Shown here one piece after another: positions 889 to 18,299 of a stretch of DNA of 20,486 bases. Both the position numbers and the translations under genes were made by a program. The notes beneath the pieces were generated by a model that saw only the letters and a list, made by a program, of their open reading frames with translations, was not told where the DNA came from and did not search any database. This stretch comes from a virus, in IMG/VR virus record IMGVR_UViG_3300008448_000849, positions 1 to 20,486 of that record; one strand, written 5' to 3'. Position 1 is the first letter of the stretch, and each line of letters begins with the position of its first letter.

Positions 889-1560
889 ATGGCATTAGAG
901 TTATCTAAAATTAAACAAGTACCGCTAAGCGAATCACAATATTTTAAAACCGAAGTAAAGAAGCATCAGATTGTGTTGCATCACACTGCTGGTAATAGTT
1001 CTGGCGTAGCAACCATTCAGAATTGGAATACTGACGATCGAGGTCGTATAGCAACCTGCGTAACAATATCAGGACCAGGGAAGAATTCCACAGATGGTGA
1101 AATTTGTCAAGCATTTTCTTCACGCCATTGGGCATACCACCTAGGTGTTAAACAAGAAGTGTTTCGTGCATACAAAGTTCCATACGTCGAACTAGACAAG
1201 CATTCAATTGGTATTGAAATATGCAATTGGGGACAACTAGAAAAACGTGGCGATAAGTTTTATAGTTATGTAGATCGAGAAGTTCCTAAAGAAGCTGTAA
1301 CGGAATTAGCAGAGGCATATAAAGGCCATAAATACTTTCACCGATATTCAGATGCTCAAATTGAAGCAGTGCACGATTTACTTGTGTATTGGAGATCACA
1401 ATACAACATAGACCTAACTTTTAACTATGATCAGTGTTTCACAGTAAACACAAAAGCTTTACGTGGAGAAACCGGATTATATACTCACAATTCATATCGA
1501 AAAGATAAAATTGATATTTATCCGTGTCCTAGAATGATAACCATGCTAAAAACATTGTAA
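889..1560 (+). CDS. N-acetylmuramoyl-L-alanine amidase (endolysin, amidase_2 type)
   Basis: This 223-aa protein likely cuts the amide bond between N-acetylmuramic acid and L-alanine in peptidoglycan at the end of infection. IVLHHTAG (28-35) gives the first zinc histidine (H31/H32). SIGIEICNWG (106-115) is the central strand with E110. H200 and C213 in the closing H-x12-C-P stretch match the second histidine and the cysteine ligand of the T7-lysozyme class. The length fits a single catalytic domain without a separate wall-binding domain, although 25-30 residues beyond the core (about 117-200) form an insertion relative to minimal amidases. There is no signal peptide, so release would depend on a holin. 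Its stop overlaps the start of the holin gene (TAATG at 1558-1562), implying coupled translation. Confidence 0.88.
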   Translation: MALELSKIKQVPLSESQYFKTEVKKHQIVLHHTAGNSSGVATIQNWNTDDRGRIATCVTISGPGKNSTDGEICQAFSSRHWAYHLGVKQEVFRAYKVPYVELDKHSIGIEICNWGQLEKRGDKFYSYVDREVPKEAVTELAEAYKGHKYFHRYSDAQIEAVHDLLVYWRSQYNIDLTFNYDQCFTVNTKALRGETGLYTHNSYRKDKIDIYPCPRMITMLKTL

Positions 1561-4758: not shown

Positions 4759-5208
4759 ATGAAACGACTTGACGAATGTGGTTGTAGTTCAAACATGAAT
4801 CATGATACTACTGAAAACTACATGTTTTTTCAGAACCTAAAAACTATTAAAAAAATGGTTGATGCTATGCTACAAATGGATCCATCACAGATTGACCAGA
4901 TGCTATCTAATGGACATGGTTGGGCAGTGGATCACATTGCAACGTCAAAAGACGATGTGGAAGAAGTTGGTGGGTTCTTAATGGGAGCATCACATTCGAC
5001 TGATTCATATAACACACAACAACCACAATTCATCCCAGCTGACTTTAAAAATCATCTGAGACAATTGATGCCAGAACGCATTGAGAAAACTGATGCTGGT
5101 TATTTTGCTACTACAGAAACAGGTCGTCGATTATCAAAGAAACCTAAAACAAAAAAAGCTGCATTAAAACAACTTGCAGCTGTTGAAATATCAAAACATA
5201 AACGATAA
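4759..5208 (+). CDS. Conserved-looking phage hypothetical with C-terminal KPKTK motif
   Basis: This 149-aa soluble protein has two segments. Residues 20-75 form a helical domain (FFQNLKTIKKMVDAMLQMD, then IDQMLSNGHGWAVDHI and a helix ending FLMG). Residues 90-149 end in a basic tail, LSKKPKTKKAALKQLAAVEI followed by SKHKR. That tail resembles one I have met repeatedly at the end of phage and large-virus proteins, where its role is unknown; it could bind nucleic acid. The N-terminus carries a CGC pair (residues 7-9) like the small protein at 3743. The stop overlaps the next ATG (TAATG at 5206-5210). No catalytic site is visible. Confidence 0.6.
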   Translation: MKRLDECGCSSNMNHDTTENYMFFQNLKTIKKMVDAMLQMDPSQIDQMLSNGHGWAVDHIATSKDDVEEVGGFLMGASHSTDSYNTQQPQFIPADFKNHLRQLMPERIEKTDAGYFATTETGRRLSKKPKTKKAALKQLAAVEISKHKR

Positions 5209-5621
5209 TGGAAAAGCTTAAACATCTCTTAATCGAGGCTAACACTAAATGTCCCGTAGCAACGCAGGATATGCATGTTAATTTAGAAAATCGTCAACAT
5301 GCAATCGATGAATATTATTACGGTCCGGCAAATCCAGAAAAGCCAGGTAAGTATTGGAAAGATGCTGCTAAGCGTTGGAAAACAACAGAGGCCGAAGTTA
5401 AATCGATGCGATGCGGTAACTGTGCGGCATTTGACCAAACAAAGAAAATGTTGAGTTGCATAGAAAAGGGCATTAAGACCGGCCATTACGGGAATGAACC
5501 AGGCATCGATGCAAAATCAACTATTAAAAAAGCAGATTTAGGTTATTGCAATGTGTTTAAATTCAAGTGTGCAGCTGATAGAACTTGTACAGCATGGCTA
5601 ACTGGAGGTCCACTAAAATGA
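5208..5621 (+). CDS. Cys-rich phage protein with putative capsid-targeting tag
   Basis: The 137-aa product starts MEKLKHLLIEANTK. The LIE-A step fits the (L/I)-x-E cleavage rule of T4-type prohead proteases, and the same tag begins three nearby proteins. The mature part has seven cysteines: C15, then the cluster C69-x2-C72-x11-C84 and C114, C121, C127, in the context MRCGNCAAFD and GYCNVFKFKCAADRTC. Such spacing suggests a zinc or iron-sulfur site. The preceding AKRWKTTEAEVKSM stretch looks helical. I do not recognise an enzyme. Its stop shares ATGA with the muramidase start, suggesting that the two are made together and perhaps travel together in the virion. Confidence 0.6.
   Translation: MEKLKHLLIEANTKCPVATQDMHVNLENRQHAIDEYYYGPANPEKPGKYWKDAAKRWKTTEAEVKSMRCGNCAAFDQTKKMLSCIEKGIKTGHYGNEPGIDAKSTIKKADLGYCNVFKFKCAADRTCTAWLTGGPLK
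5604..5608 (+). promoter_or_regulatory. Strong Shine-Dalgarno that sets the muramidase start
   Basis: GGAGG ends 9 bp before ATG 5618. It supports that start over the upstream in-frame ATGs at 5585 and 5594. Confidence 0.6.
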
Positions 5622-6343
5622 TCAATCTAAAAAATTTATTAACGGAATCTATAACTACAGATCCAGAATATGTTGCATACATTAAAGATCAGGAAGGTTC
5701 GATAAAAGATCCACGTGGCTTTCATAAAGCATATCGAGATTCAGTGGGTGTTTGGACAATCGGATATGGTCACACCGGACCAGATGTTAAACCTGGTATT
5801 AAATGGCCAGAAAGTAAAGCAGAAGCTCAGTTAAAGCGAGATTTAGCAGAAGCTGAGCTCAAGGTAAAAAACTATATCACAAAGAAATTTCCTGGTAAAA
5901 CATTGAATTCTACGCAGTTAAAAATGCTTACTGACTTTGCATTTAACCTAGGTAACCTTTCTGAGTTCCCGAAATTCACTGCCGCTGTAGTTCGAAAGGA
6001 TTGGAAGACCGCATCTCAAAACTATAAAAGATATGCCGGCGGTAAAGAATTAACAAAACGAAATTCGGATTTCTTTAATAAATTTTTAAAACCATTACTA
6101 TCACAACCAACAGCTGTTGATAACACACTAATTACGCCAACTGGTGGTTTCGGACCAAAGATGCAACGAGCGGTGAATGCCGCAAAACAAAATACATGGT
6201 TAGTTCAAGCAGGGGACACGCTAACTGGTATTGTGGATAAATTAATTACAGTTGGTTACACAACATCAGTAGCTTCTATTAAAAAGTTAAACGGATTAAA
6301 AACCGATATGATACAATTAGGTCAAAAACTAAAATTGAAATAA
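5618..6343 (+). CDS. GH24 muramidase (T4-type lysozyme) with C-terminal LysM domain
   Basis: This 241-aa enzyme would hydrolyse the MurNAc-GlcNAc glycan bond. The T4-lysozyme triad is visible: E26 in DQEGS, D41 in YRDSVG and T47 in WTIGYGH, with the D-to-T spacing of six kept. LTDFAFNLG (about 112-120) corresponds to the helix that follows the active-site cleft. Residues 194-241 form a LysM module (WLVQAGDTLTGIVDKL, then IKKLNGLKTDMIQLGQKLKL) that would anchor it on peptidoglycan. The N-terminus MINLKNLLTES resembles the cleavable capsid tag shared with neighbours, so it may be a virion-borne lysin for entry rather than a lysis enzyme. I chose ATG 5618 over 5585 because of GGAGG at 5604-5608 and the ATGA overlap. 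Confidence 0.88.
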   Translation: MINLKNLLTESITTDPEYVAYIKDQEGSIKDPRGFHKAYRDSVGVWTIGYGHTGPDVKPGIKWPESKAEAQLKRDLAEAELKVKNYITKKFPGKTLNSTQLKMLTDFAFNLGNLSEFPKFTAAVVRKDWKTASQNYKRYAGGKELTKRNSDFFNKFLKPLLSQPTAVDNTLITPTGGFGPKMQRAVNAAKQNTWLVQAGDTLTGIVDKLITVGYTTSVASIKKLNGLKTDMIQLGQKLKLK

Positions 6344-6372
6344 TTGGATTACTGATACTATTTCTATATAAT
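6344..6372 (+). promoter_or_regulatory. Possible promoter before the ClpS cluster
   Basis: TTG (6344-6346) and TATATAAT (6365-6372) are 18 bp apart in the 35-bp gap ahead of the gene starting at 6379. Support is moderate because the gap is AT-rich overall. Confidence 0.35.
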
Positions 6373-6378
6373 AATGAT

Positions 6379-6621
6379 ATGGGAAATACCGCAAATAAAA
6401 ATTATATAGAGCAGTTATTCAGAGACTCTATCAACGTGATGAAAACTGATGAATGGCATTGGCCAACACATTGGGATCATGATCGTAAGCTTAGATTTCT
6501 AAATGATTCATTAAATTATGCAGCACAATATGAATATTGGGAACAAGCTGCTATCATACGAGACGTGCAACTAATACTCAATCAGGACACAGATGGCACA
6601 GTATCAGATCATACTAAATGA
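6379..6621 (+). CDS. Small UVR-motif-like protein
   Basis: This 80-aa protein contains RKLRFLNDSLNYAAQYEYWE and then QAAIIRDVQLILNQD (about residues 33-70). The L-x-x-A-x-x-x-E-x-W-E-x-A-A-x-I-R-D pattern is close to the UVR helical hairpin found in UvrB, UvrC and McsA-like proteins, where it mediates protein contacts. An aromatic segment with three histidines and three tryptophans (EWHWPTHWDH) precedes it. It overlaps the ClpS gene by 29 bp, so the two are translationally linked. UVR motifs also occur in regulators of Clp proteases, which makes the pairing with ClpS noteworthy, but a shared function is inference. Confidence 0.5.
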   Translation: MGNTANKNYIEQLFRDSINVMKTDEWHWPTHWDHDRKLRFLNDSLNYAAQYEYWEQAAIIRDVQLILNQDTDGTVSDHTK

Positions 6622-6835
6622 TGACAATGTTAACACGTTTGACCATGTTATTGATACACTAATTGATGTGTGTGGACACAACTATTACCAAGCTGTTCAG
6701 TGTGCTACCATTGTGCATAACAACAAGCAATGTGTGGTGTTTCAAGACAACAAAGAATCCTGCGAACATGTTTGCAGTATATTGTGTGAAGAAGGATTGA
6801 ATGCAATTACGGAACGAATAAAACGAAAAAAATGA
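6593..6835 (+). CDS. clpS: ClpS-like N-degron adaptor
   Basis: The 80-aa product is a compact ClpS domain without the usual long N-terminal extension. Recognised features are IILNDDNVNTFDHVIDTLID (6-25), CGHNYYQAVQCATIVH (27-42) and a C-terminal helix. In bacteria ClpS hands proteins with destabilising N-terminal residues to ClpA. Pocket residues include the Asn-Asp-Asp cluster (here within 9-12), F16 in the gatekeeper region and H42 in the IVH motif. The spacing is one residue longer than in common Bacteroidota ClpS (NDD-VNTF against NDDN-VNTF), so an ungapped alignment would place DDN in the pocket. AGGA at about 6583-6586 precedes ATG 6593. It presumably redirects or blocks host ClpAP. Confidence 0.85.
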   Translation: MAQYQIILNDDNVNTFDHVIDTLIDVCGHNYYQAVQCATIVHNNKQCVVFQDNKESCEHVCSILCEEGLNAITERIKRKK

Positions 6836-7008
6836 TTAAATGGTTACGGCGTATACGAATTGGCGTGCTACACGCAACATATCATCGCAACATGAAACGA
6901 GCGAATCAGTCTCGAACTAAACAAGACATTGTTAAATTTAAAAAATACATTTACCGGGCAGAAGATGCCTGGAGAAAACTAGTTATATTAATCGAAAAAA
7001 ACAAGTAA
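6832..7008 (+). CDS. 58-aa basic hypothetical protein
   Basis: The ORF starts in an ATGA overlap with the ClpS stop and encodes a strongly basic protein: MIKWLRRIRIGVLHATYHRN, then a lysine-rich middle and an amphipathic helix (KKYIYRAEDAWRKLVILIEK). It has no cysteine or catalytic motif. The basic N-terminus could contact membrane or nucleic acid. It is supported by its position in a tightly overlapped chain and by the plausible coding pattern; function unknown. Confidence 0.5.
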   Translation: MIKWLRRIRIGVLHATYHRNMKRANQSRTKQDIVKFKKYIYRAEDAWRKLVILIEKNK

Positions 7009-7012
7009 AGTT

Positions 7013-7399
7013 ATGGGTAAAAAATCAGTATACTCTGGAGAATCTGCAAAAGATCGTTCAATCAATTTAATGGATAAATTCATATCCAGAACCGTTAATC
7101 GAGAAAAACATTTACCAAAACTACCAGGGCGTAGAAAAGATCCTGCAGTGCCAATTAATTTATGGCCATTGCGCGACCAACTAGAATATTGGGAAACCAG
7201 AACAGATGCTGACCGATTTGATGAACGATATTCTGCATACTCCATATGGTATGATGCTGTTAAACAACTCAGTGGAGTGTATCACAGAACATTTGTAGAC
7301 TTTACGGGTCAGTTAAAAACAGAGATGCATGAAATGTGGGAATCTAAAACAACTCCAAAAGAAGCAGTACGATTGCTCAGAAAAAAGGGCGTATATTAA
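7013..7399 (+). CDS. Hypothetical protein
   Basis: This 128-aa soluble, charged protein has no motif I recognise. It begins with a Ser/Lys-rich segment (MGKKSVYSGESAKDRS), has a central proline-tryptophan stretch (VPINLWPLRDQLEYWETRTD) and ends in helices with KTTPKEAVRLLRKKGVY, which has the look of a small helix-turn-helix. The start follows the previous stop by 4 bp and its stop overlaps the HNH gene (TAATG at 7397-7401). Being co-transcribed with an HNH protein it might be a DNA-binding partner, but nothing proves it. Confidence 0.5.
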   Translation: MGKKSVYSGESAKDRSINLMDKFISRTVNREKHLPKLPGRRKDPAVPINLWPLRDQLEYWETRTDADRFDERYSAYSIWYDAVKQLSGVYHRTFVDFTGQLKTEMHEMWESKTTPKEAVRLLRKKGVY

Positions 7400-7953
7400 T
7401 GGAACCAAAGCAGTATAAATATGTATATGGTCGTGGGCGTTCTGCATTTGATTTACCAGAATCAGATATCCGGTATGCCATGGCAAACACAAAATCCAAT
7501 GCCGAAGCAGCCCGATTCATGAAAGTGTCTTTTGATACTTGGAAGAAGTATGCATGCATGTATGTGGATCGTGACACCGGTAAAACATTGTATGAGTTAC
7601 ACACAAATCAGGCTGGCATCGGAATACCAAAAGATACTGCTAAAGCAACATCAGGCCCATATGCAATCGATAAAATTTTGCAAGGTGAGTATCCAAATTA
7701 CCCAACATGGAAGCTTCGCAACAGGATCCTTGCTTTGAGTATTTTGCCAGATGCTTGCTCATGCTGTGGTTACTCGGAACCTAGAATTACCGATGGTACA
7801 GTACCGCTACTTTTAGACCATATGGATGGTGATGTAACCAACCACCGCATAGAAAATTTACAGCTACTTTGTCTTAATTGTTACTATCAACAAGTAGGAT
7901 CTCCATTCAATTCTGATAAAGAACATTTTTGGAACTATAACTTGCTTTGTTGA
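7399..7953 (+). CDS. HNH endonuclease-like protein with N-terminal HTH-like region
   Basis: The 184-aa protein has an N-terminal helical part (ANTKSNAEAARFMKVSFDTW, 29-48) resembling a recruited helix-turn-helix, and a C-terminal zinc-stabilised HNH fold. C120/C123 and C158/C161 form the two CxxC zinc knuckles. LLLDHMDGD (137-145) supplies the first catalytic His (H141), and N148 or N153 the central Asn. The residue after the last knuckle, usually His (CxxCH), is Tyr162 here. That could lower or change nuclease activity. It resembles homing or free-standing HNH proteins of phages. Its stop lies just upstream of the next gene, whose putative promoter sits inside its 3' end. Confidence 0.75.
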   Translation: MEPKQYKYVYGRGRSAFDLPESDIRYAMANTKSNAEAARFMKVSFDTWKKYACMYVDRDTGKTLYELHTNQAGIGIPKDTAKATSGPYAIDKILQGEYPNYPTWKLRNRILALSILPDACSCCGYSEPRITDGTVPLLLDHMDGDVTNHRIENLQLLCLNCYYQQVGSPFNSDKEHFWNYNLLC

Positions 7954-7959
7954 TATTTA
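7928..7959 (+). promoter_or_regulatory. Putative Bacteroidota-type promoter within the HNH 3' end
   Basis: TTTG (7928-7931), exactly 20 bp, then GATATTTA (7952-7959). The -33 box is inside the HNH coding region. Transcription would start near 7965, at the ATG of the zincin gene, giving a leaderless message. Confidence 0.5.
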
Positions 7960-7964
7960 TTAAT

Positions 7965-8720
7965 ATGATATCAATGAAAACACTTATTATCGAAGGACGT
8001 TATGACGCGTTAGTTACACAGCTATCAAACAAACTACTCAAAGTTGTTAAAGATAGTTACTCCGCGGTATCAGAGTCTAATGGTGAATTTGCTGGTGTTA
8101 AGATATATTTTAAAACAGGTGAAGACCGTCCTGAAATTGCAGATACTGAATTATTCAATGAAATATATTTTGAAGAAGTCGAGAATGCAACTATTCCATT
8201 AGATTTCTATTTATCATTGCGAGTACAATGGGTCGAAGGATTAAATGATTTACGATACGGTGGTGATGCTTATAATGAAACTGCAGAAGATGCTGACGAC
8301 TTAACTCCACCATTAATCGAAGTTAGATTTGAATTAGACCCAGCAGAGTATCCCAAAGTATTAAGTGACATAGCTATGCAGTTACGAGATATACTTCGTC
8401 ACGAAATTGAACATACAACACAATCGGGGTGGAATACTAAACGAGGAAAATATTTGCCAAGTGATATGAGTATTCGAAATAAAATTCAATCCGGGAAAAT
8501 TCCAGCATATCGTTATTTCATGTTGGATAAAGAAATTCCAGCCATGCTTCAAGGCCTATATCTCAAAGCAAAGAAATCTAGAACACCATTCAAATCAGTA
8601 GTAGATGAATTTTTAAATGCATGGGTTGTTACTAAGCATATTACCGTATCGCAACGAAATCAAATTTTGAATACATGGAGATCATATCTTCCTAAATTAG
8701 GAATACGTCAGGAGTTGTAA
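7965..8720 (+). CDS. HExxH zinc metallopeptidase-like protein with putative capsid tag
   Basis: Read from ATG 7965 the product has 251 aa. LRHEIEHTTQSG contains HExxH (146-150), the zinc and catalytic core of zincin peptidases. E190 in LDKEIPAMLQGLYLKAK, 40 residues on, is a candidate third ligand. The N-terminus MISMKTLIIEGRYD matches the tag shared with 5208, 5618 and 8720 and has IIE-G as a possible prohead-protease cut. An acidic loop (about 104-113) precedes the core. The in-frame TTG at 7947 is unlikely because it would add hydrophobic residues unlike the tag; ATG 7974 is an alternative start. The target protein is unknown; an injected protease acting on host proteins is one option. Confidence 0.65.
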   Translation: MISMKTLIIEGRYDALVTQLSNKLLKVVKDSYSAVSESNGEFAGVKIYFKTGEDRPEIADTELFNEIYFEEVENATIPLDFYLSLRVQWVEGLNDLRYGGDAYNETAEDADDLTPPLIEVRFELDPAEYPKVLSDIAMQLRDILRHEIEHTTQSGWNTKRGKYLPSDMSIRNKIQSGKIPAYRYFMLDKEIPAMLQGLYLKAKKSRTPFKSVVDEFLNAWVVTKHITVSQRNQILNTWRSYLPKLGIRQEL

Positions 8721-10621
8721 TGCATAAGTTAAAGACACTTTTAGAGACACAATTAATTAAAGAAGCACTACCATTACATGTTGCTAAAAGTTATGTTAAA
8801 ATGGGCGATAGGCGGGGTAACAATCCACATATCGAAGATCAAATGGATAGTATCCTAGATTTTATAAAACAACAACCTGATGCTAAAGTTTCTCGACGTG
8901 GAGATCGTGTAGCAGTGCCATTCGATGTAGAGGTTGTAATATCTGATTCCCCACCATCGCAACAATTAATTAAATTCTACAATGCATTGGATAAGGAACG
9001 TGAACAGGCTAATTTTCAAATTATGAAAAGTGCTGATCAAAAAGGTAAACGTACGTTTCATGGATATGCAAATTTATTCTCCTTAGCAATGCCGACCATA
9101 AAAGACCAGTATGGTCGCGAAGTTAAGATGTCTAAATATATTACAGCCGTAATGACAGCAGCAGATCGCGGAGTACGTGATATGGTTGAAAAGTTACTTA
9201 AGCCAGATCCTGATACTGGTAAATTAGTTCTGATTCAGAACGACGGCAAGAAAATACCAGCTGACGAAGCCCGTGCTAGATATCGAAACATTATAAAAAT
9301 TGAAATTGAAAAATTAATAAAACAATACAATGAAATACCAGAAGTAGAAGAATTGCGATCTGCGAAACCGAAAAGATATTACATAATATTTTCGAAACAC
9401 CCATATGACATAGCAGGTATGAGTACAGATCGTGGATGGACTAGTTGCATGAATTTGTACCAAGGTTCGAATGCTAGTTACATTCAATATGATATCGAAG
9501 TTGGTACTATGGTTGCATATCTAGTTAAAGAAGAAGATTTAAATATTAAAAATCCAACAGCTCGTATTGCAATAAAACCTTATGTAAACATCACAGATAT
9601 AAAAGATGTACTTTACGAGCCAGAAGAAAAAACATATGGAACTGCTAGAAATGAGTTTTGGCTACAAGTAAATAGATTAGTTACAGCTGCACAGCCTAAT
9701 AAATCAGGTACATTTAAATTAATAGATACGTTATATTGTGATAGTAAAGCAAGAATAACAAAGTATTCAGATCCCAAGCTTCCAGCAAAAATAGAACGTT
9801 TATTACAAAATAAACAACAAGCTTCTACAATTGATGAAGCAAATTATCTATTAACTAATTATTATCAAGTACCATCTGGCGATTTTAGTAAAATCACATA
9901 CTCAGACCAAGATAAGTTATACATCGATGCTCCGCTATATATAGTTGTTCCACCAGCTCTTAATTATAGTCCAGTTGCTATAAATTACTGCACCGCGTTT
10001 ATTATAACAAATCCGGTGTCATATGATTCATTCCCTGTGGATGTTACGGATTTAGTTATACACCAGCCTAATAAATCAGACTTCGTCGGATTAAATACTG
10101 AAATTCGAAATCGTCTATCGTTATATGGCGGCGATATAAATAACTTTAATGGATTGCTACCAGGCGTACGTAATATAACAGTATCGTCGAAACCACAAAC
10201 TAAAACAGTTATAAGATCGTTCCGAGGATTACCATCCACTGTTAATATAATAGACATTCCATTGAATATGAACAATACATCACTCGTGTTGGATATGACA
10301 TTAGAGGAAATGATTGCTGACTTAAAACCGGTTGGTTTAATTAATCTAAACTTATATTTAGATGTTGACTATCTAAATCGATTAATCGCAGTAGACGCTG
10401 CTTCGTCATTTGCTGGCAAGTTTATGGATTCATTATATGAAAAAATGAAATCTATTCCAATGTATCATGACGGAGATTCTATACGAAAAGGATCTCAATA
10501 TTATAGGTTGATGGGCTGGTTGTCTAGACAGTTACCGACAATTATGAGTTGTACCCAATACCGAGCTGGACATATAAATTTACAAAAACTACCCGAATGG
10601 GCATACCCGGAAAATTGGTAA
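8720..10621 (+). CDS. Large conserved-looking phage protein of unknown function
   Basis: This 633-aa protein is among the largest of the window and I cannot name its family. It starts MHKLKTLLETQLIKEALPLH, again with the tag-like LKxLLE. A distinctive block at 222-290 (IIFSKHPYDIAGMSTDRGWTSC, GTMVAYLV, ARIAIKPY) looks like a conserved core with Ser, Arg, Trp and Cys positions that could be catalytic. I have seen this block in other phage proteins without assigned roles. The C-terminal half (about 380-620) alternates hydrophobic and polar residues and has a repeat-like beta/helix character. Its ATG overlaps the zincin stop (TAATG), so the two are probably coupled. It could be an injected or structural virion protein. 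Confidence 0.6.
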   Translation: MHKLKTLLETQLIKEALPLHVAKSYVKMGDRRGNNPHIEDQMDSILDFIKQQPDAKVSRRGDRVAVPFDVEVVISDSPPSQQLIKFYNALDKEREQANFQIMKSADQKGKRTFHGYANLFSLAMPTIKDQYGREVKMSKYITAVMTAADRGVRDMVEKLLKPDPDTGKLVLIQNDGKKIPADEARARYRNIIKIEIEKLIKQYNEIPEVEELRSAKPKRYYIIFSKHPYDIAGMSTDRGWTSCMNLYQGSNASYIQYDIEVGTMVAYLVKEEDLNIKNPTARIAIKPYVNITDIKDVLYEPEEKTYGTARNEFWLQVNRLVTAAQPNKSGTFKLIDTLYCDSKARITKYSDPKLPAKIERLLQNKQQASTIDEANYLLTNYYQVPSGDFSKITYSDQDKLYIDAPLYIVVPPALNYSPVAINYCTAFIITNPVSYDSFPVDVTDLVIHQPNKSDFVGLNTEIRNRLSLYGGDINNFNGLLPGVRNITVSSKPQTKTVIRSFRGLPSTVNIIDIPLNMNNTSLVLDMTLEEMIADLKPVGLINLNLYLDVDYLNRLIAVDAASSFAGKFMDSLYEKMKSIPMYHDGDSIRKGSQYYRLMGWLSRQLPTIMSCTQYRAGHINLQKLPEWAYPENW

Positions 10622-10645: not shown

Positions 10646-11119
10646 ATGGAAAAAATGTATATAGATGAATCAGATCCTTGTTGGAGTGGATATGAAATGA
10701 TTGGAATGAAGAAAAAAGGAGGTCGTAAGGTTCCTAATTGCGTTCCAATTGCAGAAGCCGAAGGATATTGTCCACAATGCCTAGTAGAATATATTGAACG
10801 AAACCAAAATGAATCAGAATACATTACTGTTATGCAACCAGGCCTCAATGAAGCGGAATACCAAGGACGCAAAGTTAAACTAGGTAAACCAATGCGTGGC
10901 GATATTAAGAAATTCAAAGTTTATGTTCGCAACGCCGAAGGCAATGTAGTTAAAGTTAACTTTGGACATGGAGGTACCTCAGCAAAAAGAGCTGGGCAGA
11001 AAACAATGCGTATACGCAAATCAAATCCAGCACGCCGCAAAAGTTTCAGAGCACGCCATAATTGTGAAAATCCAGGACCGAGATGGAAAGCAAGATATTG
11101 GTCTTGCCGAGCTTGGTAA
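10646..11119 (+). CDS. Basic phage protein with conserved GYEMxGxKxKxGRKVPNC motif
   Basis: The 157-aa product carries two recognisable blocks. The first is PCWSGYEMIGMKKKGGRKVP (11-30) followed by NCVP, a motif I know from phage and large-virus proteins. The second is the basic C-terminal half, EYQGRKVKLGKPMRGDIKKF (71-90), KVNFG, and finally RRKSFRARHNCENPGP and ARYWSCRAW. Cysteines C12, C32, C42, C45, C140 and C154 may form metal sites (YCPQC is a CxxC). LNE-A at 68-71 would fit a prohead protease cut separating the blocks. A promoter-like TATATTTATTATAAAG (10624-10639) precedes it. A nucleic-acid-binding virion protein is plausible. Confidence 0.6.
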   Translation: MEKMYIDESDPCWSGYEMIGMKKKGGRKVPNCVPIAEAEGYCPQCLVEYIERNQNESEYITVMQPGLNEAEYQGRKVKLGKPMRGDIKKFKVYVRNAEGNVVKVNFGHGGTSAKRAGQKTMRIRKSNPARRKSFRARHNCENPGPRWKARYWSCRAW

Positions 11120-12609: not shown

Positions 12610-13758
12610 ATGAAGAAAGAATTGTATGGTATTGTTACCGTCACTAAGAACGGTATGCGTGTATTAGAAGTTGGAACTAACATTGACATTACTAGCATGT
12701 TCCGCGATGATATGATCGCATTAGCTGCCCAGAATCTAGAGGCACTTAAATGGAATCCGGAAACTAACCGAGCAAAACGGATTGCGATGTCAGAAGTCCC
12801 AACTGAACTCTCTACAGCCCCCGTCGATCAACCAAATGCTGTGAATGATCCGGTGTTGGCTTTGATTAACAAGGCACATGAAATCAAACCAGCTGATCTG
12901 GAAATGTCGAACACTAAATGGAAGTATCTGGTTAGATCTGCATTGCGCGGAAAAAACATCATGATGGTAGGACCTGCAGGTTGCGGCAAGACTCAAGCCG
13001 CAAAATCTCTTCCAGAAGCAACAGGTCGCCCATTCTTTTATTTTAACTTAGGAGCAACACAAGATCCTAGATCTACTTTGATTGGTAACACTCACTTTAA
13101 AGATGGTGAGACTACTTTTGATGAATCGGCTTTTGTTAAAGCAATTCAGACAAAGGATGCTGTGGTTCTGCTCGATGAGCTATCACGTGCACACCCTGAG
13201 GCTTGGAATATCTTGATGACAGTTCTAGACGAAGGTCAGCGATATCTGAGATTGGATGAAGATGTTAACGCACCTACTATTCACGTAGCAGAGGGCGTAT
13301 CATTCATTGCAACGGCAAATATTGGTACTGAGTATACATCTACGCGTGTGATTGACCGAGCAATTATGGATCGATTCGAAATCATTGAGGTTGATATCTT
13401 GTCAATGGAACAAGAGAAGTCTTTGCTAAAATACAAGTTTGGTAATCGAGTGTCAGATGATCTTATCCATGCAGTTGCAGATATTGCAGACGCAACACGC
13501 AAAGAATGGAGATCAGAAGAAGGTAAACTGAGCACTATGATTTCGACTCGTATGACAGTTCGTGTCTGTGATCTTTTAGCAGATGATTTCACATTGTTAG
13601 AAGCATCTGAGGTTGCTATTCTTCCATTCTTTGATGCAGCCGGAGGCGCTGACTCTGAAAGGACATTTGTTAAGCAGATTATCCAGAAACATATGGCAAC
13701 GGCCGATAATGATATTTTCAATACAGGTGAAGCCACCGAAGCAAATAACCCATTCTAA
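12610..13758 (+). CDS. MoxR/CobS-like AAA+ ATPase
   Basis: This 382-aa protein has an N-terminal accessory part (1-100) and one AAA+ module. Walker A is GPAGCGKT (121-128), Walker B VVLLDE (185-190), sensor 1 TAN (235-237), and DRAIMDRFE (249-257) carries the arginine finger. The sequence DPRSTLIGNTHF, with an insert near 150-170, and EAWNILMTVLDEGQ mark the MoxR/CobS type rather than a clamp loader. These ATPases work with von Willebrand A proteins as metal-insertion or complex-remodelling chaperones. The VWA partner is the next gene (13884), separated by a terminator and a new promoter, so the pair can be set at different levels. T4-like cyanophages carry CobS-like genes; here the substrate is unknown. 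Confidence 0.88.
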   Translation: MKKELYGIVTVTKNGMRVLEVGTNIDITSMFRDDMIALAAQNLEALKWNPETNRAKRIAMSEVPTELSTAPVDQPNAVNDPVLALINKAHEIKPADLEMSNTKWKYLVRSALRGKNIMMVGPAGCGKTQAAKSLPEATGRPFFYFNLGATQDPRSTLIGNTHFKDGETTFDESAFVKAIQTKDAVVLLDELSRAHPEAWNILMTVLDEGQRYLRLDEDVNAPTIHVAEGVSFIATANIGTEYTSTRVIDRAIMDRFEIIEVDILSMEQEKSLLKYKFGNRVSDDLIHAVADIADATRKEWRSEEGKLSTMISTRMTVRVCDLLADDFTLLEASEVAILPFFDAAGGADSERTFVKQIIQKHMATADNDIFNTGEATEANNPF

Positions 13759-13775
13759 TTTCTTTTTCATAGCTC

Positions 13776-13823
13776 AAAAGAGACAGTTACGGCTGAAAAG
13801 AACCGGCACGACCTGTCTCTTTT
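13776..13823 (+). terminator. Rho-independent terminator with an extended structured loop
   Basis: AAAAGAGACAG (13776-13786) pairs perfectly with CTGTCTCTTTT (13813-13823), an 11-bp stem followed by further T residues. The 26-nt loop has its own possible CGG/CCG pairing (13790-13792 with 13803-13805). It lies 18 bp past the ATPase stop. The long loop is unusual for a simple terminator. Confidence 0.75.
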
Positions 13824-13835
13824 TCTATAATCTGG

Positions 13836-13866
13836 TTGGATTATATCATTTAATTTCTTATATTTA
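13836..13866 (+). promoter_or_regulatory. Bacteroidota-type promoter of the VWA gene
   Basis: TTG (13836-13838) in GGTTGGA, exactly 20 bp, TATATTTA (13859-13866), followed by AAAGAG (13873-13878) before ATG 13884. It lies just after the terminator and repeats the -7 octamer of the upstream ATPase promoter, so the two genes appear to share a promoter class. Confidence 0.6.
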
Positions 13867-13883
13867 TAGTATAAAAGAGAACT

Positions 13884-16097
13884 ATGGAAAAACAATCAAA
13901 TATTCGTGTAAGGTCTGCGGTTAGTTCAAGATTCGGTTTTGGAGGTTATCGTGAAGAAGCTTCTAAATTCTGGATGTCAGATTCATTTGAATTCAACCAA
14001 GATCGCAACCAGACTGATGTAACTAAGTTAGCAGCTGCTCAACGAGCTATTGGTAATTTTGTGAATATCGTTACCGGCAAACAGATCCCAGTGCTTTTTA
14101 ATAAACGTGGTGGTGATAGTTATACCGATGGCAATCATGTTGTGATAGGTACTAAACTAGATGGCAAGAATTTTGACCCTGCGGTTGGATTGGCATTGCA
14201 TGAAGGATCGCATATTGCATATACCGATTTTGGAATGTTCAAATCAACGAGTGGGAATTCAGTTAATTCATTGTCAAACACCAAGATGGCAAACATAGTT
14301 CGTATGCATGGAGTAGATCCTGATATGACCATGACAGAACGAGAGTTTGGGATCATTAAAGATTTGCTTAACTGGATCGAGGATCGTCGCATTGATTACA
14401 TCATGTATAAGAATGCTCCAGGATATCGAGTTTATTACGAAGCAATGTATGATAAGTACTTCAATGACAAGATCATTGACAAGGCACTTCGCGAAAATGT
14501 TAAGTGCGATGAAGATTATGAATGCTATATGTTTCATATCATAAACTTCACTAATCCTAGCAGAAATATCAATACATTGAAACGACTTCGCAATATCTGG
14601 AATCTGATAGATTTATCCAGAATCAATCGTTTGCAAAATACTCAGGATGCATTAGTACTAGCGATTGGGGTGTATCGAATAATGCAAAGTGCAGTAACGG
14701 ATGCATCTGTGTTACAGTCTGCTATTGAAAAACAAAAGAAGTTCCTGAACGGAGAAGTAGATAAAGAGAATGATACGCCAGATGATAATGCAGAGCCTGG
14801 TTCACCCGGTCCTGTCGCTCCTAGTGCTAATCGAGATGATGCAGATGATAAAGACTACGAAGATGAAGATCACGAAGATGAAGACCGGGACGATGAAGAT
14901 TGGGATGGCGAAGATGATGACCTCGAAGATGAAGATGAACGCGTCCCCGGCCTAGCAGATGCTATGGCAGAACAAACGGCATCGGAATTGTTATCGGATA
15001 AAGAACGGCAGAAACTTGACAAGGCAATTGAAAAGCAAAAGTCTTTTCTAAGTGGCGATGTCAAGAAGGATGGTGCTCTATCTAAACAAGAGGCCGCACT
15101 AGTAGCTGCAGTTAAAGAATCTGGCACCGAAGTTGTAAATGTCGCAACCGGTGCTGGTAACAGTGCAATGGTATCTACTATTGTGATTAAAAAATTAACT
15201 GCCGGTATTATATGTAATATGTCGGATCTATTCCATCATGGATCAGATGATGTAGTTAATGGTAAAGTTGATTTATCTAGTGATACATACACAGCTCGAC
15301 GCTTCCAGAAACGACAAGGTGTAGTAACAAAAGGCCTATTATTAGGCAAGCAACTCGGAGCAAAATTGCAGGTTCGAAATGCAGATCGCACTCTGAAAAC
15401 TACTCGTTTGCAGAATGGTAAAATTGATAGACGATTGGTGTCTCAGTTAGGATATGACAATGCTAATGTGTTTCATAAAATTGTAACTGATAGATACAAG
15501 AATTATTTTATTCACATTTCAATTGATGCTTCGGGGTCAATGAGTGGAGGTAAATTCGATAAGGCGTTGATCTCTGCAATCGCGATTGCTCAAGCAGCAT
15601 CTATGACAACTGGCATTCGAGTTCAAATATCACTTCGCGGAACATCATCTAGATTTGGTGGTAAACATGACCGATGTGTTACTATCATGGCGTATGATTC
15701 GGCCACTGACAAAATGAGCAAGATACAGAGTTACTTTAAATATCTAGATGTTTATGGTTGTACGCCGGAAGGGGTTTCTTTCAAAAGCATCGAGCCATTG
15801 TTGAGAACTCAAAGCAAAAGTGATGAAGTTATCTTTATAAATTATTCAGATGGTGCACCGACCGTAGTATCTGGTATGCATATGTCTCCAGAAGATTTTA
15901 CTAAGAAGACTATCAATGAGTTCCGCGAACATGGGTTTAACATTATTAGTTATTTTATATGTGAATCTACTCCACACCATTCCACTAAAAAGGTATTCAC
16001 TTATATGTACGGTACCGATGCATCGTTCATTCAACCTGAGAACATGATTGATGTGGCAAAGACAATGAATTCTAAATTTCTAGAAATTGAAAAATAA
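13884..16097 (+). CDS. VWA-domain protein with HExxH metallopeptidase-like domain (CobT-like)
   Basis: The 737-aa protein combines three parts. Residues 95-172 hold ALHEGSHIAYT (HEGSH at 106-110, a HExxH zinc site) and NWIEDRRID (163-171), whose E166 is a candidate third ligand, as in CobT-like and M48-like proteins. Residues 318-352 form an acidic linker of Asp/Glu, a hallmark of CobT. Residues about 540-735 are a von Willebrand A domain with the MIDAS start SIDASGSMSGG (D548, S550, S552), T636 in GCTPEG and a NYSDGAP motif. The linker is flanked by two copies of AIEKQK-x-FL-x-G-(E/D)-V (280-291, 381-393). With the MoxR-like ATPase upstream, it probably forms a metal-dependent remodelling machine. 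The metal, protease activity and target are unknown. Confidence 0.82.
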   Translation: MEKQSNIRVRSAVSSRFGFGGYREEASKFWMSDSFEFNQDRNQTDVTKLAAAQRAIGNFVNIVTGKQIPVLFNKRGGDSYTDGNHVVIGTKLDGKNFDPAVGLALHEGSHIAYTDFGMFKSTSGNSVNSLSNTKMANIVRMHGVDPDMTMTEREFGIIKDLLNWIEDRRIDYIMYKNAPGYRVYYEAMYDKYFNDKIIDKALRENVKCDEDYECYMFHIINFTNPSRNINTLKRLRNIWNLIDLSRINRLQNTQDALVLAIGVYRIMQSAVTDASVLQSAIEKQKKFLNGEVDKENDTPDDNAEPGSPGPVAPSANRDDADDKDYEDEDHEDEDRDDEDWDGEDDDLEDEDERVPGLADAMAEQTASELLSDKERQKLDKAIEKQKSFLSGDVKKDGALSKQEAALVAAVKESGTEVVNVATGAGNSAMVSTIVIKKLTAGIICNMSDLFHHGSDDVVNGKVDLSSDTYTARRFQKRQGVVTKGLLLGKQLGAKLQVRNADRTLKTTRLQNGKIDRRLVSQLGYDNANVFHKIVTDRYKNYFIHISIDASGSMSGGKFDKALISAIAIAQAASMTTGIRVQISLRGTSSRFGGKHDRCVTIMAYDSATDKMSKIQSYFKYLDVYGCTPEGVSFKSIEPLLRTQSKSDEVIFINYSDGAPTVVSGMHMSPEDFTKKTINEFREHGFNIISYFICESTPHHSTKKVFTYMYGTDASFIQPENMIDVAKTMNSKFLEIEK

Positions 16098-16634: not shown

Positions 16635-18298
<1,664 letters not shown>

Positions 18299-18299
<1 letters not shown>

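Follow-up and report, generated by a model that had tools for sequence, protein, structure and literature searches.

A probable capsid-targeting tag at the N-termini of unrelated proteins in an uncultured T4-like phage

Why do four phage proteins with unrelated bodies begin alike? The question is raised by a virus record of 20,486 bases, a 20-kb fragment of the genome of an uncultured T4-like phage, which we call, over its whole length, the window. The best explanation we can offer is that the shared N-terminus is very probably a capsid-targeting sequence of the kind known from phage T4.

Four proteins with one N-terminus

The four tagged genes lie between positions 5208 and 10621 (in the following, an arrow marks a cleavage site).

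5208..5621, + strand: Cys-rich protein, 137 aa; tag MEKLKHLLIE at 5208-5237, predicted cut E10↓A11
5618..6343, + strand: muramidase, 241 aa; tag MINLKNLLTE at 5618-5647, predicted cut E10↓S11
7965..8720, + strand: HExxH protein, 251 aa, zincin-like; tag MISMKTLIIE at 7965-7994, predicted cut E10↓G11
8720..10621, + strand: 633-aa protein; tag MHKLKTLLE at 8720-8746, second conserved site QLIKE15↓A16, to 8764

The first-pass annotation had claimed that these N-termini are alike and that the bodies behind them are unrelated. Both statements stand. All four tags are present in the sequence, and without them the bodies group by similarity into four distinct clusters. The Cys-rich protein, the muramidase and the HExxH protein fit the strict pattern Mxx[phi]xx[phi][phi]xE; the 633-aa protein, which begins with MHKLKTLLETQLIKE followed by A from position 8720, is one residue short, with its Glu at position 9 and not 10. 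The muramidase ORF as listed opens at an upstream TTG (5585), and its homologues begin at the ATG at 5618. The start of the HExxH protein at 7965 sits within a longer ORF.

The muramidase has a Phage_lysozyme domain of the GH24 type (PF00959, residues 36-145, E=4e-20, above the cut-off) and a LysM domain (residues 196-240, E=9e-8). The HExxH protein, with its HEIEH at 8400-8414, has no match in Pfam or the PDB, and its AlphaFold2 model is poor (pLDDT 53). The model of the Cys-rich protein is also poor (pLDDT 40); public entries for its relatives bear the name "high potential iron-sulfur protein". The 633-aa protein belongs to no Pfam family, its residues 203-403 resemble giant myophage proteins, and a related-locus search of viral contigs with this protein returned no matching stretch. 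Sequence searches of the PDB yielded no useful match for three proteins, and Pfam matches to "Death", "Chromo_shadow" and "ThuA" fell below the cut-off and were treated as noise.

Two further proteins of the window lack the tag.

889..1560, + strand: N-acetylmuramoyl-L-alanine amidase (PF01510, E=1.4e-10), untagged
10646..11119, + strand: 157-aa protein, untagged; its homologue in the related record G002 has a tagged N-terminal extension, MIKLTNLLNEDLRRWV

The untagged amidase is the likelier candidate for an ordinary endolysin. The window also encodes a GroEL of 538 aa (16683-18299), whose homologues in three related phages are 81-89% identical, and a MoxR-type AAA ATPase that adjoins a VWA-domain-like protein (12610-16097), an arrangement kept in four related phages.

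One could argue that such short N-termini resemble each other by chance, given that the strict pattern turns up at 0.25% of positions (a background rate of 0.0025 per internal position). Calculated from this rate, the three matches among about 30 genes of the window alone have a p of about 6e-5. When the window is pooled with five related records, whose homologues are not independent of each other, 37 of 857 N-termini match where 2.2 are expected (p=1e-32; the 857 genes were called by greedy ORF picking, and a few starts are possibly wrong). The narrower Leu-Lys form occurs 33 times in the same six records (0.33 expected), and G002 alone has 14 matches among 209 N-termini (0.5 expected). In near relatives, the number of different tagged proteins per phage reaches about fifteen.

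The tag is also conserved within families, in counts that include some overlapping or near-identical loci. The strict form is found in 60 of 60 members of the HExxH family, where E10, GRYD and HExxH are invariant across 28 aligned homologues, and in 58 of 61 members of the lysozyme family. In the Cys-rich family 50 of 63 members have the strict and 58 of 63 the loose form. All five members of the 633-aa family have their own form of the tag (MIRLK[PR][LI]LE[IT]QLIKEA or MHKLKTLLETQLIKEA), and in a 110-aa family all 48 are tagged, with the form shifted by one residue. The pooled excess, the conservation in 60 of 60 members of one family and the exact tag on 37 families leave a chance resemblance with a vanishingly small probability: it is refuted by the data.

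A modular peptide in two versions

The 37 families come from a scan of IMG/VR for a single degenerate exact tag pattern, which fixed positions 2, 3, 5 and 10 and allowed Leu or Phe at positions 4, 7 and 8. The scan found 103 stretches, compared to 8 with a codon-reversed control. An ORF of at least 60 aa is begun by 83 of the 106 tag matches and by 0 of the 8 control matches, and the bodies behind the exact tags belong to 37 unrelated families, compared to none for the reversed control. The residue after the predicted cut (P1') is variable in this set, hence not every tag need be cut.

Shared 5' ends could also reflect an element that works on DNA or RNA, such as a translation start or a promoter, or recent duplications spread by recombination, with no role in targeting. 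Several tags in one genome are indeed very alike, and a TATTTATTAAT-like box lies ahead of some of them. However, the DNA that flanks the tags within single genomes is unrelated both up- and downstream (27-36% identity), and 30-41% of the residues that tags have in common are encoded by different codons. Hence, selection acts on the peptide. The pattern also persists through a change from Leu to Phe at positions 4 and 7. The codon differences largely refute an explanation at the level of DNA, which we regard as highly improbable.

A box like ATATTTATTAAT directly precedes some start codons (window 7944-7964) and is found upstream of several tagged genes. In four large records the coding strand has only about 1.3-2.3 times as many copies of TATTTATT as the other strand. 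The box is possibly a late promoter of these phages.

Positions 4 and 7 vary together. Across the families both are Leu in 25, both are Phe in 11 and only one family is mixed (Fisher p=1.4e-8). Of the loci or records that contain two or more strict-tagged families, 63 are entirely of the Leu type, 13 have Phe at position 4 throughout and 1 is mixed, in a tally that covers few independent clades and some overlapping loci. The body of the Cys-rich protein is nearly constant, whereas its tag differs by clade (MEKLKHLLIE versus MKKFIPFLLE). The class of the tag follows the phage or contig, not the protein, within these few independent clades.

Other N-termini may form further classes. In G001 and G002 a tag is followed by NMRRFGTKNL. 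In Flavobacterium phage immuto (L131; e.g., genes at 4878, 5464, 6390, 20215 and 21216) different proteins have other N-termini in common, namely (F)DLKKFLVENKLTxNS and MKKSxLxxIIKEEL. Both sets are possibly further tag classes.

Probable targeting and cleavage, and the likely fate of the cargo

In T4 the internal proteins (IPs) and Alt are head proteins; mutations in the tag of IPIII show that targeting works mainly through residues 4 and 7 and processing through residues 8 and 10, and the protease gp21 cuts after L/I-X-E, releasing propeptides of 10-19 residues (PMC9026906). The tags of the window match this sequence at its four functional positions (4, 7, 8 and 10). Position 4 is Leu or Met and position 7 is Leu in the clade of the window, versus Tyr or Phe. 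In three of the four tags residue 8 is aliphatic and residue 10 is Glu; the 633-aa protein combines E9 with the alternative I13-K14-E15. All lie at the N-terminus, inside the first 10-19 residues. Run on the T4 genome, the strict pattern picks out IPII, IPIII, gp24, Alt and 61.1, as well as a single match that is probably false.

More tagged N-termini and a gp21-like protease had been predicted for the rest of the genome. Both are found in relatives; the window record itself contains no protease, and at 20 kb the fragment is too short to hold one. Its gene order is syntenic with G001 (169 kb), G002 (160 kb), G003 (131 kb) and G005. A Peptidase_S77 (PF03420, E 1e-33 to 1e-41, above the curated cut-off) is present in G001-G004 and G006. 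Its alignment with T4 gp21 spans the GELxHP and GxSSRGxGS motifs, and it has an N-terminal LIVE site near the position of LIE9 in T4. S77 is also present in Flavobacterium phage immuto. The pro-region of the major capsid protein in these relatives ends in LVKE↓A, and its counterpart in T4 gp23 is FLTE↓A. The Cys-rich body has no tag in three complete phages that lack S77 (DSL-LC01, ctYwJ313 and ctnlZ23). Another body carries the tag in L173 but lacks it in the S77-less ctYwJ313 (67% identity over 81 aa). S77 is present in all 8 tag-bearing records of at least 110 kb. Since 2 of the 3 background records in this size range also encode it, we do not count the 8 of 8 as an association.

The gp22-like scaffold protein has tag-like segments of its own (LKSILSE-VN, IIEAILRE and LEAIIRE; G001:46178, G002:67503, G003:81502), kept in three phages. 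These might be cleavage sites or the segments that the tag imitates. We do not claim mimicry of the LKSILSE segments, since T4 gp22 shows no clear counterpart.

The first-pass annotation placed the start of the mature 633-aa protein at T10. Here it probably erred: L4 and L7 are kept and L-I-K-E15↓A16 is conserved in 5 of 5 members of the family, which resembles T4 IPI and makes this a better site than E9↓T10. The predicted mature N-terminus is A16. Its broader proposal of a capsid-targeting and cleavage signal is strongly supported at the level of sequence, by the match to the T4 positions, by S77 in syntenic relatives, by the dozens of unrelated bodies that carry the tag and by its absence from the same bodies in S77-less phages.

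The tag would work as follows. In the infected cell it would dock its cargo to the inner core of the assembling prohead through the hydrophobic residues 4 and 7. After assembly, the S77 protease would cut past the Glu of [L/I]-x-E, which is E10, or probably E15 in the 633-aa protein. The freed cargo would stay inside the head with the DNA and would probably be ejected alongside it into the host. Docking, cleavage and packaging appear highly likely, judging from the tested agreement of the pattern and the protease in relatives. Injection, for which we argue by analogy with T4, is somewhat more probable than its opposite.

T4 gp24 is a shell protein that is cleaved by gp21 and remains in the shell. 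It matches the pattern, hence a tag-like N-terminus alone does not imply injection, and the tagged proteins could be targeted to the head and cut only to serve in its assembly or to stay in shell or core. In G006 a tagged 126-aa protein is indeed encoded beside the protease, within the head gene cluster. Most tagged bodies, however, are encoded away from that cluster, and the cargo includes lysozyme, tail-lysozyme-like and HExxH proteins, like the T4 Alt and IPs, which are injected. We consider such a purely structural role unlikely. The tag could instead send proteins to the tail or elsewhere in the infected cell. Muramidases are commonly tail-associated, and the phage of the window encodes a GroEL that could recognise N-termini. 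Against this, the match to the tag of the T4 IPs holds position by position, the IPs and Alt are head proteins, and the tag is found on many proteins that are not tail-like. An address other than the head is very unlikely, and capsid targeting followed by cleavage remains our preferred reading.

The presumed cargo and its known counterparts

The tagged lysozymes of G001-G006 belong to different families: PF00959, the PF18013 tail-lysozyme type and, in one case, a protein that combines GDSL with peptidoglycan-binding domains. Also tagged are two HExxH families and proteins with DUF6267 and DUF6934, as is a ParB-like protein with weak PHROG support. Other tagged proteins look kinase- or ADP-ribosyltransferase-like by eye only, and Pfam gave no confirmation. 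Such cargo resembles T4 Alt and the IPs.

Some proteins with different bodies also have the C-terminus (K/R)YDASGIDTPGDPxM in common (G003:43642-44082 and 44098-44589; G002:103396-103920; G005:19508-20281; G001:97098-97751). Nine proteins have YDASGIDTPGDPxM or a shorter variant, and all nine are tagged at the N-terminus as well. Possibly it is a second signal, for targeting or for cleavage; it could also be a recombination cassette. In immuto, gp088 (L131:9715-12438, 907 aa) has a C-terminal HExxH domain after an internal VMAE↓GRYD site. It also has another HExxH-type motif and a part that resembles NadR. Its sequence suggests a polyprotein cut by the prohead protease.

To learn which proteins are injected with phage DNA normally takes virion proteomics, and this cannot be done for phages that are not in culture. 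The tag offers a way to list, from sequence alone, the proteins that a phage probably packs and injects. Such a tag would yield candidate injected effectors for many phages from the environment, and the first to be pointed out would be enzymes of anti-defence and takeover. With the paired Leu/Phe code, the docking partner becomes a testable question. Our most general proposal is tentative, and we would put it slightly below an even chance: that in a large, uncultured branch of T4-like phages a swappable address with a co-adapted L/L-or-F/F code brings about a dozen exchangeable proteins of each genome into the head, to be injected, some with YDASGIDTPGDPxM as a possible second signal. The cargo would consist of cell-wall hydrolases, HExxH proteins and apparent kinase-, ADP-ribosyltransferase- and ParB-like proteins.

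The mechanism of the tag is already known from T4, and our finding extends it; it is not a new kind of mechanism. The Leu-type variant, the paired code and the size and kind of the cargo set appear undescribed in the titles and abstracts of the literature searched. None of the open papers found to name the capsid targeting sequence deals with these phages, judged by title and abstract.

The closest counterparts are T4 IPI, IPII and IPIII (MKTYQEFIAE↓A) and Alt, which likewise combine an N-terminal tag of about ten residues with unrelated bodies and an S77 protease in the phage group. The IP tag has the same hydrophobic residues 4 and 7, aliphatic residue 8 and Glu 10, in a propeptide of 10-19 residues. 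It differs in having Tyr or Phe where the clade of the window has Leu, or at position 4 also Met, usually with Lys at 5. Large related records have about 8-15 tagged genes each, compared to 3-5 known in T4, and their predicted cargo includes cell-wall hydrolases and HExxH proteins, unlike that of T4. IPI is a close parallel to the 633-aa protein: it docks through F4 and F7 and is cut late, at ITE19↓A, while the 633-aa protein has L4 and L7 and its best [L/I]-x-E↓A site at E15. The 633-aa body, however, is unrelated and much larger, and it also has E9. A further parallel is found in phiKZ and SPN3US, where the propeptides of ejection proteins mark head cargo that is cut by a gp21-related protease after x-x-E (PMC9026906). 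In phiKZ the cut follows S/A-x-E, and no short tag of ten residues like that of the window is described there.
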